40,332 nucleotides of DNA from a virus: positions 1-40,332 of IMG/VR virus record IMGVR_UViG_3300047552_000775; one strand, given 5' to 3'. Shown here piece after piece: positions 4,205 to 8,383 of this stretch. Position 1 is the first letter of the stretch; each line of letters starts with the position of its first letter. The notes under the pieces are model-generated. The model did no database searches. It was not told the origin of the DNA and saw nothing but the letters and a program-made list of their open reading frames with translations. The translations under genes and the position numbers were made by a program.

Positions 4205-5179
4205 CTACCTCCGCAACAGTTGGCACGTCACATAATCTAAAGCTATTTCAGAATCTAATAAACCGATTTTTATTCCTTTCTCGGCAGATCTAATTATCTT
4301 TATATTTTCAATTAATTCGAGAGTCGTATAGTGATTTTTTTGTTGACGTAAGTAATAAATCTGACCACTTGATAATCCCGTTAATTCAGGCGTAGCCTGT
4401 GCCGGGCACCCCTGCACAAGTAGCATGTTTTTAAAATTGGTATATAAAGCTGCCAACGCTTTTAAATTATTTTCATTATATTGTTGCAATTCGTCTAACA
4501 ATTTCAAAGAATTAACATAGTCATTGCTTAGAACAGCGTTTGCAAAATCAAAAAGTCTATCTTCAGGATTACTGTAAAATAGATTGCACTTAATCGCTCT
4601 TTGAAATATATCATTGTAATCTGCGGATCCTTTTTCGGCTACCTCTGCAAGATATAATTGTTTCAACTTATCAATTTCAAACAACAGACGTCCATAATCA
4701 AAATTAGAAAACTTTACAAGACTTTGAGAGTTGACGGCATTCAAGGAAATTTCTTTGAATACGTATTTAAGTAATTGGTCTTCTGATAACTTCTCAAAAG
4801 AAACTAAAGGCTGTTCCTCATCCAAAAAAGCTGTATTGGTGAAGTGCTTATAAAACTTTTCTCTTTTATCCAATTCAGGATAAATCGCTATTAGATAATT
4901 GTCGCCTATAAGCTTGTCCACGTTCTTCCAAACAGTTTCAGCCCTTCTAAAAAGCTTATCTTCGTATAAGACATAGAGTTTTTTCTCATTGGTTAGTGTT
5001 TTACTTTTACTATCGGCGAGAACGATTTTTATATCTTCCTTTCTACTAATAGTAAGCCCGAACACTCTGGCTATTCCATTAATGTATGTCTTAGCCACCG
5101 CCTGCTCTTCTCCAGTAAACACTAAAACTTTTGGACAGTTTTTTGCTTTTATTTTATTTACTAAAGTTATTAAATCCAT
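4205..5179 (-). CDS. Clamp-loader delta subunit (HolA-like)
   Basis: A 324-residue protein with the features of the delta subunit of a bacterial clamp loader, which opens the sliding clamp ring. It begins with PKVLVFTGEEQAVAKTYI, the degenerate P-loop region of HolA with no functional Walker A lysine. The middle LLFEIDKLKQLYL matches the conserved E-KL segment of HolA, and the C-terminus ends in a helical collar with YYLRQQKNHYTTLELIENI. Length is close to bacterial delta (about 340). Delta-prime and split DnaX lie just upstream, so a full gamma-delta-delta-prime set is encoded. The start ATG at 5179 follows GGGAG. Confidence 0.8.
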   Translation of the reverse strand: MDLITLVNKIKAKNCPKVLVFTGEEQAVAKTYINGIARVFGLTISRKEDIKIVLADSKSKTLTNEKKLYVLYEDKLFRRAETVWKNVDKLIGDNYLIAIYPELDKREKFYKHFTNTAFLDEEQPLVSFEKLSEDQLLKYVFKEISLNAVNSQSLVKFSNFDYGRLLFEIDKLKQLYLAEVAEKGSADYNDIFQRAIKCNLFYSNPEDRLFDFANAVLSNDYVNSLKLLDELQQYNENNLKALAALYTNFKNMLLVQGCPAQATPELTGLSSGQIYYLRQQKNHYTTLELIENIKIIRSAEKGIKIGLLDSEIALDYVTCQLLRR

Positions 5180-5646: not shown

Positions 5647-6492
5647 CTATTTCCAGATTTCACGTAATGCCATAATCCAAGCATCAGCAAGCATATTCTT
5701 GCTAATGGATTTTATATCTAATTCACTCAAATATTTTGTGGTTACTTCCAAACTCTTTTCTACCTTACCGTAATGCTCGAAACTCTCGCAAACTTTGTCC
5801 TTAACGCTCCAATAAAGCCACTTTTTACAGGCTGACATAAACAAATCTATATCATACCCTTTATCAGTATCCTTTATCTTAAGCAATTGCCTAACCTTGA
5901 AGTTTTCAACTCCAGAAGTTTTTCCGATATTTCTAAGGTAATCACCAACATCATTCCACAATTTAACTATATCTAACTTCAACAACTCTTGAACATCTCC
6001 CGGAGTATCGCATAACTTGCCGATAAGCATTATATCTTCGTTATTCAAATTCCAGGTTGTATCTAAATCCCTTGCATAATCAATCAAAGAATCTTTAGAG
6101 TAAGGATTAATTTTAACAACATATGCCCGACTCTTTAAAGTATCTAAAATTCCTTTAGCATTGGTTGCTGTAGTTATGAAATAAGCCTGTCTAGGCGGTT
6201 CTTCAGTTACTTTCAATAAACTATTTTTAGCATTAGTGTGCATAGCTTCAATATTTCTAAGCCGGTAAACTGTAGGAACTGCCACCCTGTACGATGTTTG
6301 AACAGCTTCTCTAACTGCTTCCGTAGATTGCTCTACCTCAATACAATCTCCTAATTTATTGGCAATATACTCTGCTATAAGTTTTTTACCGCTTTTTCTT
6401 GCCCCCATTACTATTATAAATCTGGGCATATGATTTTCAGCTATTAATTCATTTATATGATTTATGAGTTCATCTTGTCCTACAATATTCAT
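5647..6492 (-). CDS. Clamp-loader delta-prime subunit (HolB-like AAA+)
   Basis: A 281-residue AAA+ protein like bacterial HolB, the stator of the clamp loader. The N-terminal NIVGQDELINHI matches the conserved opening, followed by a modified P-loop (GARKSGKK). The segment NSLLKVTEEPP matches the near-universal HolB/DnaX string, and LKSRAYVV is the SRC-like arginine region with Cys replaced by Ala. The start ATG at 6492 has GGAG seven nt upstream and lies just past the stop of the DnaX C-terminal part. Placing the P-loop protein here, next to delta and DnaX, supports the call. Confidence 0.85.
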   Translation of the reverse strand: MNIVGQDELINHINELIAENHMPRFIIVMGARKSGKKLIAEYIANKLGDCIEVEQSTEAVREAVQTSYRVAVPTVYRLRNIEAMHTNAKNSLLKVTEEPPRQAYFITTATNAKGILDTLKSRAYVVKINPYSKDSLIDYARDLDTTWNLNNEDIMLIGKLCDTPGDVQELLKLDIVKLWNDVGDYLRNIGKTSGVENFKVRQLLKIKDTDKGYDIDLFMSACKKWLYWSVKDKVCESFEHYGKVEKSLEVTTKYLSELDIKSISKNMLADAWIMALREIWK

Positions 6493-6494
6493 CT

Positions 6495-6983
6495 TTAAAC
6501 TCCACACAAAATTGTAATCGAAACTTCCGCAATTAATTTTGGATCTTGTTCATTTTTTAAGTTATTACACAAAGAATTAATAGCTACTAATTCTTTATTT
6601 AGATCTACTTCAATAGAATCTAAATTACTCTTAAACTGATTGGGGATTTTAATATATTTGAAATCCTTGTAAAATTGATATTTCATTACATCCATTATTA
6701 ATGACAAGAATTGTTTAAAGAATGTTTTTAATTCTTTACCCGACATATAAACATCTTCTATTTTCTTAATAGCTTGGGCTCTATCTTTATTAATCAAATA
6801 ACCTAAAAGCTCAAACAAATCCTCATACCCGCAAACATTTAAAGCCTTTGTTACAGACTCAACAGTTAAAGTTTTTGAATACCCCAAGGCTGTTTCTAAC
6901 AATGAAAGCGCCTCCCTCATTCCGCCATCTGCCGTTTTTGCAAGATACTCCACAGCTTCCAAAGTATAAGTTTTTTTATTCAT
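6495..6983 (-). CDS. dnaX: Clamp-loader DnaX (gamma/tau), C-terminal part
   Basis: This 162-residue piece matches the part of DnaX that follows the ATPase core. It opens with EAVEYLAKTADGGMREALSL, equivalent to the sensor 2 segment (GGMRDALSLLD) of bacterial DnaX, and continues into the helical collar domain. The ATPase core lies in 7856-8383; the two are separated by a GIY-YIG gene. ATG at 6983 has GGAGG seven nt upstream, so this part may be translated on its own. If the intervening DNA is an intron instead, the two parts join in frame. There is no long tau-type extension. Confidence 0.8.
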   Translation of the reverse strand: MNKKTYTLEAVEYLAKTADGGMREALSLLETALGYSKTLTVESVTKALNVCGYEDLFELLGYLINKDRAQAIKKIEDVYMSGKELKTFFKQFLSLIMDVMKYQFYKDFKYIKIPNQFKSNLDSIEVDLNKELVAINSLCNNLKNEQDPKLIAEVSITILCGV

Positions 6984-7701
6984 GTATAATCCTCCAATTA
7001 AATCCACACGCTGTCTTATTTTTAGTACAAGCTTGACTAATTCCGGTTATTCCAGTAAGCTCTACGGCTTCTTTGATACTGGAATAAATAATGCCTGTTT
7101 CTACACACAATACTTTTTTACGATTCTGAGCAGGTTTTCCTAAATGAGCCTCACTCATTTTTATTTTTGTTTCTTCAGAATGTTTAAATTCACCAACTTT
7201 TCTACAACTTCTAAATAATCTAGGATCTTCTTTCGACAACCCTTTATTCCAAACAGGTTTATTGGATATTTTTCTATCAGCGTAAACTCCGTTAGCCCAA
7301 TGCTGCTTAACTGTAGATCTTATACGATCTTTAACAGAATTCGACATATTTAAGTTTAATTGTCTAAGTTTTTCTTTAGTTTTCTCACTAACGGTTCCTC
7401 CACAGATAGGTCCTAAATTATATGTTTCATTATCATCATAACCGCCCAAATAGTTAAGCCACTCTAGCTCTAGCTTATCCAACTCTTCAGAGGCGCATTC
7501 TTCTAAAATTTCAAACTTAAAGTTTTCTTCTCCGTATTTATTCCAGGCTCTTTGTAAATAACTATTTCTATGAATGTTTTTATTTAAAGAGTATCTATGG
7601 CTTCTTAATCTACTTTCGCAGTTCACACTCTGCCCTATATAGCATTTTCCGTTTAGCTTGTTAAAAATCCAATAAATACCGCAAATATTTTCTCTTACCA
7701 T
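6976..7701 (-). CDS. GIY-YIG homing endonuclease inside dnaX
   Basis: A 241-residue homing endonuclease of the I-TevI type. The GIY ... YIG catalytic core lies in the first 30 residues (CGIYWIFNK, then CYIGQ), with Arg and Glu further on (LEECASEELDKLELEWL). A NUMOD3-type segment (KHSEETKIKMSEAHLGK) and a NUMOD1-type C-terminus (VLCVETGIIYSSIKEAVEL) follow, both DNA-binding modules of homing enzymes. The start is ATG at 7701 behind AAGGA; the longer open frame would cross a structured RNA. The last codons overlap the start of the DnaX C-terminal gene, which puts that ribosome binding site inside this frame. Confidence 0.9.
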   Translation of the reverse strand: MVRENICGIYWIFNKLNGKCYIGQSVNCESRLRSHRYSLNKNIHRNSYLQRAWNKYGEENFKFEILEECASEELDKLELEWLNYLGGYDDNETYNLGPICGGTVSEKTKEKLRQLNLNMSNSVKDRIRSTVKQHWANGVYADRKISNKPVWNKGLSKEDPRLFRSCRKVGEFKHSEETKIKMSEAHLGKPAQNRKKVLCVETGIIYSSIKEAVELTGITGISQACTKNKTACGFNWRIIHE

Positions 7702-7855
7702 CTCAGTTCCTTCCAAATAAGAAACCCTCCCTTTGAATGTCAAACCACAAGGAGGGTTAATATGCTCTTGGCATATCAAATTCTTAGCAATACTATTTCC
7801 GTGGTTTGACATTCCTATTATAGGGTATTTATTCTTATTTGTAAAGTTAATGAGA
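7702..7855 (-). ncRNA. Pseudoknot-forming RNA upstream of the endonuclease gene (intron-like leader)
   Basis: Between the stop of DnaX-N and the endonuclease start lies a highly structured RNA. A 14-bp perfect helix joins 7801-7814 with 7735-7748. An 8-bp helix joins 7751-7758, inside the first, with 7723-7730, outside it, forming an H-type pseudoknot. A 6-bp hairpin (7760-7765 with 7771-7776) sits in the connecting loop. The pseudoknot ends about 14 nt before the AAGGA ribosome binding site. It could be part of a self-splicing intron or a translational control element for the endonuclease. I could not identify group I core elements with confidence. Confidence 0.5.
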
Positions 7856-8383
7856 TTACTCACAAACATATCCTTCTTTTTCTAAAACATGTATTAGCCT
7901 ACTCAATATTCCCTCAAAACTTATTTTTTGGAAATCAAACCGCTGACCTCTTGAAAATATAGTTTGTGGGAATTTTTGCGGGTCTGTGGTACAAAATAAA
8001 AATACCACATTCTTAGGAGGCTCCTCGAGCAGCTTTAAAAATGCACCAATGGCTCCAGCACTCAGCAAATGAGCCTCGTCTATTATATAAACCTTGTAGG
8101 GAACTCCTATAGGTTTTTTATAAGAATCTTCGATAATTCCTCTGACCTTATCTACGCCATTATTTGAAGCCGCATCCACTTCTATATAGGCATCGGGAAT
8201 ACCGTTCAGTTCATTGGCGAATATCCTCGCACTGGTAGTTTTACCAGTTCCGGCGCTTCCCAAAAACAAATATAAACTGTGTACTTTCTGTTCCTTAATC
8301 TGATTTTTTAATATTTTGATGATAAAAGATTGCTCTACCACATCTTCGAATCTCTGCGGACGATACAAATTGTATAAACTCAT
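7856..8383 (-). CDS. dnaX: Clamp-loader DnaX (gamma/tau), N-terminal ATPase part
   Basis: This 175-residue piece holds the AAA+ ATPase core of DnaX. It opens MSLYNLYRPQRFEDVVEQ as bacterial DnaX does, has Walker A at residues 42-50 (GSAGTGKTT), Walker B IIDEAHLL, the string FLKLLEEPP, and the arginine-finger region as SRGQRFDF (Cys of the usual SRC replaced by Gly). The four-cysteine zinc module of bacterial DnaX is missing. It stops at VLEKEGYVCE, exactly before the sensor 2 helix, which continues at 6983. ATG at 8383 follows AGGAG. Confidence 0.85.
   Translation of the reverse strand: MSLYNLYRPQRFEDVVEQSFIIKILKNQIKEQKVHSLYLFLGSAGTGKTTSARIFANELNGIPDAYIEVDAASNNGVDKVRGIIEDSYKKPIGVPYKVYIIDEAHLLSAGAIGAFLKLLEEPPKNVVFLFCTTDPQKFPQTIFSRGQRFDFQKISFEGILSRLIHVLEKEGYVCE

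Follow-up and report, generated by a model that had tools for sequence, protein, structure and literature searches.

The dnaX gene of a metagenomic virus is interrupted by a GIY-YIG homing endonuclease gene (HEG) within the region encoding the lid of the AAA+ ATPase. The window, that is, the whole stretch of DNA analyzed, comprises the 40,332 bases of IMG/VR virus record IMGVR_UViG_3300047552_000775. We explain the locus with high confidence by a free-standing HEG located in a loop of the DnaX lid, two flanking dnaX genes that are translated separately, and control of the HEG by a leader hairpin. According to this explanation, the HEG would have entered the phage dnaX in the loop separating lid helix 1 from lid helix 2, making two genes of it; DnaX-N and DnaX-C would be produced from one operon and would assemble without a covalent link into a gamma/tau-type ATPase acting with the phage delta' and delta subunits. 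A chance origin of the split was excluded by the homologies described below and by its recurrence, in the same form, in six further contigs.

Structure of the split dnaX locus

The sequence-only reading of this DNA had proposed that dnaX is interrupted by a GIY-YIG gene and that the gap is about 870 nt long. Pfam searches and ORF positions bore out both points: the two dnaX halves and the endonuclease ORF were all recovered (Table 1), and the distance from the DnaX-N stop codon to the DnaX-C ATG was 872 nt. DnaX-N matched DNA_pol3_delta2 and AAA and contained Walker A (GSAGTGKTT), Walker B (IIDEAH), sensor 1, and the SRx arginine. DnaX-C matched domain III and, starting at position 17 of the 49-position profile, the DnaX ATPase lid. 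The HEG product matched GIY-YIG (E = 9e-11) and NUMOD3, with the catalytic domain at residues 7-83 followed by a C-terminal DNA-binding region. Aligned with intact phage DnaX, DnaX-N and DnaX-C jointly covered the protein from end to end with nothing missing, and all the hallmarks of DnaX (gamma/tau), namely Walker A and B, sensor 1, the SRC-type arginine, the sensor-2 arginine, and domain III, were present across the two halves. With the delta' and delta genes nearby, the phage encodes a full set of clamp-loader subunit types.

Table 1. Features of the dnaX region in the window and predicted elements of the HEG leader
Feature	Position	Strand	Details
dnaX-N	7856..8383	-	175 aa; RecA-like AAA+ domain and lid helix 1; stop codon TAA at 7858-7856
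HEG leader	7702..7855	-	154 nt; from dnaX-N stop to HEG start
GIY-YIG HEG	6976..7701	-	241 aa; ATG at 7701, TAA at 6976
dnaX-C	6495..6983	-	162 aa; ATG at 6983; lid helices 2 and 3, sensor-2 GGMR, collar domain III
Shine-Dalgarno GGAGG of dnaX-C	6991..6995	-	Supplied by conserved TGG AGG (Trp-Arg) codons close to the C-terminal end of the HEG
delta' gene (holB-like)	5647..6507	-	Directly 3' of dnaX-C, transcribed in the same direction
delta gene (holA-like)	4205..5179	-	Clamp-loader context
Sigma-70-type promoter TTTACA-N17-TATAAT	7817..7845	-	11/12 match, the highest over 11 kb of scanned sequence; located within the hairpin, with transcription predicted to begin near 7810
Outer stem, 5' arm	7832..7856	-	Predicted to pair with the HEG ribosome-binding site and start; missing from internal-promoter RNA
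Outer stem, 3' arm	7702..7725	-	Contains HEG Shine-Dalgarno AAGGA (7712-7708)
Inner hairpin	7735..7814	-	Perfect 14-nt arms at 7814-7801 and 7748-7735
Terminator-like stem AACCCTCC/GGAGGGTT	7758-7746/7735-7723	-	Followed by a U-rich tract

Position of the break in the AAA+ lid

The position of the break differed from that first proposed, which had DnaX-N ending right before the sensor-2 helix and DnaX-C resuming at GGMREALSL. DnaX-C starts approximately 20 residues earlier (MNKKTYTLEAVEYLAKTADGGMREAL), and a whole lid helix lies between the break and sensor 2; the break is thus one helix earlier, in the loop that joins the first two lid helices. The Pfam lid match of DnaX-C begins inside the profile, and therefore the first part of the lid remains on DnaX-N. 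DnaX-N ends five residues past the end of its homology to intact DnaX, and DnaX-C begins about four residues ahead of the point where this homology resumes.

A structure predicted for L001, an intact relative, had a mean pLDDT of 90 and resembled E. coli gamma, with Z of 27-29 in the best rows of the comparison. It contained helices at residues 150-166, 175-185, and 189-202, the last being sensor 2. On this model the break maps to the loop at residues 167-174, and in the numbering of E. coli gamma it lies just after residue 195. The same loop varies in intact relatives, by 0 to about 60 extra residues, and this variability in length is consistent with tolerance of a chain break.

Splits at the same loop in other phages

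We surveyed about 190 viral dnaX loci, mostly metagenomic and with some contigs counted more than once, for comparison with relatives lacking the insertion. In about 178 of these loci dnaX was uninterrupted, as it was in L118 and in the isolated phages MS1 and Dp-1. Besides the window, six contigs carried dnaX split at the same loop (L035, L273, L204, L259, L287, and L401), giving at least seven in all. The survey contained the splits of L273/L199, L204, L259, and L287; the best relative of the window HEG was found in L035, where dnaX is split at the same junction, and L401, whose end falls inside dnaX-C, was added by searching with the shared DNA-binding region described below.

The intervening gene was a HEG in five of these six contigs. 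In the sixth, a DNA methyltransferase gene (L287:2681-3364; PF01555, 2e-41) occupied the break, its start and stop overlapping the flanking dnaX parts on both sides. On a DnaX tree of 50 rows, the split state required six or more changes, a minimum that held when the count was limited to well-supported branches, with gains and losses treated alike. L035 had the uninterrupted L118 as its sister on this tree, for which the dnaX genes of both contigs were read piecewise because of frameshifts. These lie in dnaX-N or near the lid, at L035:3500-3610 and around positions 4546, 4651, and 5000 of L118, and may be sequencing errors.

Positions 1-25000 of the window had no near DNA match in the phage collection, and DnaX-C alone as the query had no match among the viral contigs.

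Translation signals and selection on the two halves

DnaX-C has its own start, an ATG with GGAGG seven bases upstream at proper spacing. Opening this start site was calculated to cost 4.0 kcal/mol, similar to the values for other genes of the window. The proposal that the HEG ends inside the ribosome-binding site of DnaX-C held insofar as the HEG overlaps that site; the gene also extends over the first 8 nt of dnaX-C (ATGAATAA). By carrying the DnaX-C start signals in its last codons, the insertion would end one ORF and open the next. The sequence TGGAGG followed by the DnaX-C ATG was also present in L035, L204, L273, and L401, and TGGAGG occurred near the gene end in five of the 116 scanned GIY-YIG loci, two of these five being copies of L035. 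A Shine-Dalgarno sequence and an ATG of its own were found for DnaX-C in all seven split contigs.

These signals, the retention of the motifs, and the lack of an intron signature strongly supported the view in the sequence-only reading that the clamp loader functions as two polypeptides, as in HEG-split genes of T4-like phages. The gene sequences suggest that the clamp-loader motor probably works as two proteins, and we infer that both are stable and reassemble.

The alternative that retains the most probability, small as it is, holds that the insertion killed the phage dnaX, that the host clamp loader is used, and that the two pieces are relics. The window DnaX lies on a long branch of the tree (1.97), and its C half has diverged (31-42% identity to the aligned set), which fits such a loss. 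Against it, both ORFs are open with every motif kept and a good DnaX-C start site, the delta' and delta genes next door are intact, and both halves are kept in seven contigs, dnaX-C of L401 being cut by the contig end. Moreover, dN/dS was low in both halves of other split genes and about the same as in uninterrupted pairs. We found no close relative of the window; these figures come from L204 and L287, the two split contigs with closely related intact loci, compared with uninterrupted neighbors. The ratio was about 0.07 in N halves and 0.14-0.19 in C halves, values that are rough because dS was near saturation. Selection on dnaX may be relaxed in this one phage, and activity of the window DnaX seems less certain than that of the DnaX of L204 or L287.

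Search for intron and intein signatures

The sequence-only reading had left room for an intron, in which case a self-splicing group I or II element would encode the GIY-YIG protein and splicing would restore full-length DnaX. Phage group I introns often house GIY-YIG genes, the window HEG matches TIGR01453 (group I intron endonuclease), and certain joins across the insert stay in frame. However, the insert had no match to the Rfam group I and II models (RF00028, for the conserved catalytic core, and RF00029, for domain V) up to E = 10, whereas the group I intron of T4 td, used as the positive control, was detected at 2.6e-8 with identical settings. The same was true on a wider scale: no group I or II intron was detected in the whole window at the gathering score, in L035 at E ≤ 10, or in the five other split loci at E ≤ 1. 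The arrangement of the genes also argues against splicing. The HEG extends through the end of the insert and runs into dnaX-C, so that no 3' catalytic core would fit outside the ORF. The HEGs of L035 and L259 begin within the overlap with the DnaX-N stop codon, which leaves no 5' intron RNA. Together with the separate start of DnaX-C, these data make an intron very improbable.

Two further readings can be given almost no weight: joining of the halves by a split intein that flanks the endonuclease gene (a "fractured gene"), and ribosomal bypassing of the insert. The length of the insert far exceeds the known bypass lengths. Split inteins have been described around HEGs (Dassa et al., 2009, as cited in PMC10448857), and related phages have true inteins elsewhere in dnaX, but the junctions have no sequence beyond five residues on the N side and about four on the C side, leaving no room for intein halves.

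Exchange of endonuclease modules

We compared the HEG product in the window, a free-standing endonuclease on the reading preferred here, with those in the other split genes. The C-terminal region was common to the HEGs of the window, L204, L273, and L401 (47-53% identity, z 48-57), whereas the first 95 residues of the window HEG were at chance level against those three (z 1-3). These 95 residues matched L038, whose C-terminal part is unrelated. Catalytic domains of the L204 type matched GIY-YIG weakly in Pfam and clearly in PHROGs. As the nuclease domain in the window is of another type and the C-terminal region is shared, one DNA-binding module is joined to two types of nuclease. All close matches to the shared C-terminal module in the scan came from this dnaX site. 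L035 and L259 have different C-terminal regions at the same site. The patchy presence of the split on the tree and the DNA-binding region shared at one site may reflect homing by the HEG, and we infer that the enzyme is active in homing.

We lean toward the interpretation that DnaX in this phage group has a standing hot spot, namely the loop joining lid helices 1 and 2. This loop would have been split several times, with nuclease domains exchanged and one DNA-binding module kept; the split could outlast the HEG, as in L287, and the two-piece subunit would be stable and repeatedly evolved.

Related GIY-YIG HEGs also adjoined uninterrupted dnaX genes, upstream in L119, L120, L122, and L124 and downstream in L125 and L124 (L124:5848-6726). 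The four upstream HEGs overlapped the dnaX start, and their last codons carried the Shine-Dalgarno sequence of dnaX.

Predicted promoter and hairpin in the HEG leader

The leader RNA (7856-7690) was predicted to fold at -55.9 kcal/mol, compared with -30.2 ± 3.7 kcal/mol for shuffled sequences (z -6.9). The calculated cost of opening the HEG start in RNA reading through from upstream was 12.1 kcal/mol, the highest among the genes compared (2.0-10.8 kcal/mol for 36 others), and it fell to 4.8 kcal/mol in RNA begun near 7810. In the proposed mechanism, the hairpin would hold HEG expression down by hiding the ribosome-binding site in the outer stem of read-through RNA, and RNA from the promoter inside the hairpin, lacking the 5' arm, would allow translation of the HEG. 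These calculations suggest that the leader hairpin probably controls the HEG.

The same effect was calculated for read-through and internal-promoter RNAs of L204 (19.1 versus 7.1 kcal/mol) and L401 (12.6 versus 5.1 kcal/mol). A promoter matching at 11/12 positions lies inside the hairpin of L204, and TTTACA-17-TATAAT, its spacing judged by eye, lies inside that of L401. L273 has the promoter but lacks the hairpin effect (6.2 versus 6.5 kcal/mol), and L035 and L259 have no leader; the RNA switch is therefore not general. A blastn search for leader homologues returned none.

The terminator-like stem and the long inner hairpin of the leader are mutually exclusive. A pseudoknot combining the 14-nt stem with AACCCTCC/GGAGGGTT was considered and rejected, its third loop having only about 3 nt to span a 14-bp stem, and the two stems were taken as exclusive. 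Action of the terminator-like stem as an attenuator is a matter of speculation.

Comparison with known systems

Both a gene split by a HEG and a HEG start hidden in a hairpin have published precedents (PMC2988022; PMC3014915), and the combination of hairpin and internal promoter has been described for I-TevI, T4 segB, and Aeh1 mobE (PMC2988022; PMC3014915). By analogy, the dnaX locus may work like nrdA/mobE of Aeromonas phage Aeh1, where a free-standing HEG splits nrdA, an essential gene related to replication, into two parts that are translated separately, a hairpin hides the HEG ribosome-binding site, the promoter is placed so that its RNA avoids the inhibitory structure, and uninterrupted relatives exist (PMC2988022; PMC3014915). 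The two systems differ in the host protein (ribonucleotide reductase in Aeh1, an AAA+ clamp-loader ATPase here) and in the nuclease family (HNH in Aeh1, GIY-YIG here), and the dnaX loop is in addition split repeatedly by HEGs of varied types.

T4 gene 39/60 topoisomerase with mobA and phage 25 gene 43A/43B with seg43 (PMC2988022) are likewise DNA-metabolism enzymes that are split and whose pieces cooperate, although the enzymes and the insertion positions are different from those of dnaX. The persistence of a split without its HEG in 44RR (PMC2988022) can be likened to L287, where the methyltransferase gene takes the place of the HEG. I-TevI, the GIY-YIG enzyme of the T4 td intron, is similar in that read-through RNA conceals its start, whereas transcripts from an internal promoter leave it accessible. 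I-TevI differs in residing in a self-splicing group I intron; the dnaX insert shows no intron signature.

The open-access literature that we searched contained no description of a split dnaX or of any other split clamp-loader gene. Accordingly, dnaX as a HEG-split host gene and this insertion site appear to be previously undescribed; what is new is the protein affected, the position of the insertion in a loop of an AAA+ lid, the recurrence there, and the swapping of nuclease modules. Few enzymes are considered able to function once a homing endonuclease has cut them in two, and the locus adds to them the clamp-loader motor, in which the RecA-like core must be coupled to the lid. With the break recurring at one loop in at least seven contigs, natural pairs, with L204 and L287 as split and L252 and L272 as intact members, allow a direct test of how well the lid withstands an interruption of the chain. 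The HEGs constitute a natural swap of nuclease domains with the DNA-binding region kept and one target, which bears on how homing specificity is built.

Phage dnaX is a repeated target of mobile elements. In-frame inteins were present in phage dnaX genes at two other sites, at the P-loop in L028 and L029 and after Walker B (IIDEC/H) in L200 and L238. They are like the HEG insertion in being mobile and in occupying dnaX within related phages, but they lie at catalytic motifs and are removed from the protein, whereas the HEG is a separate gene in a tolerant loop.
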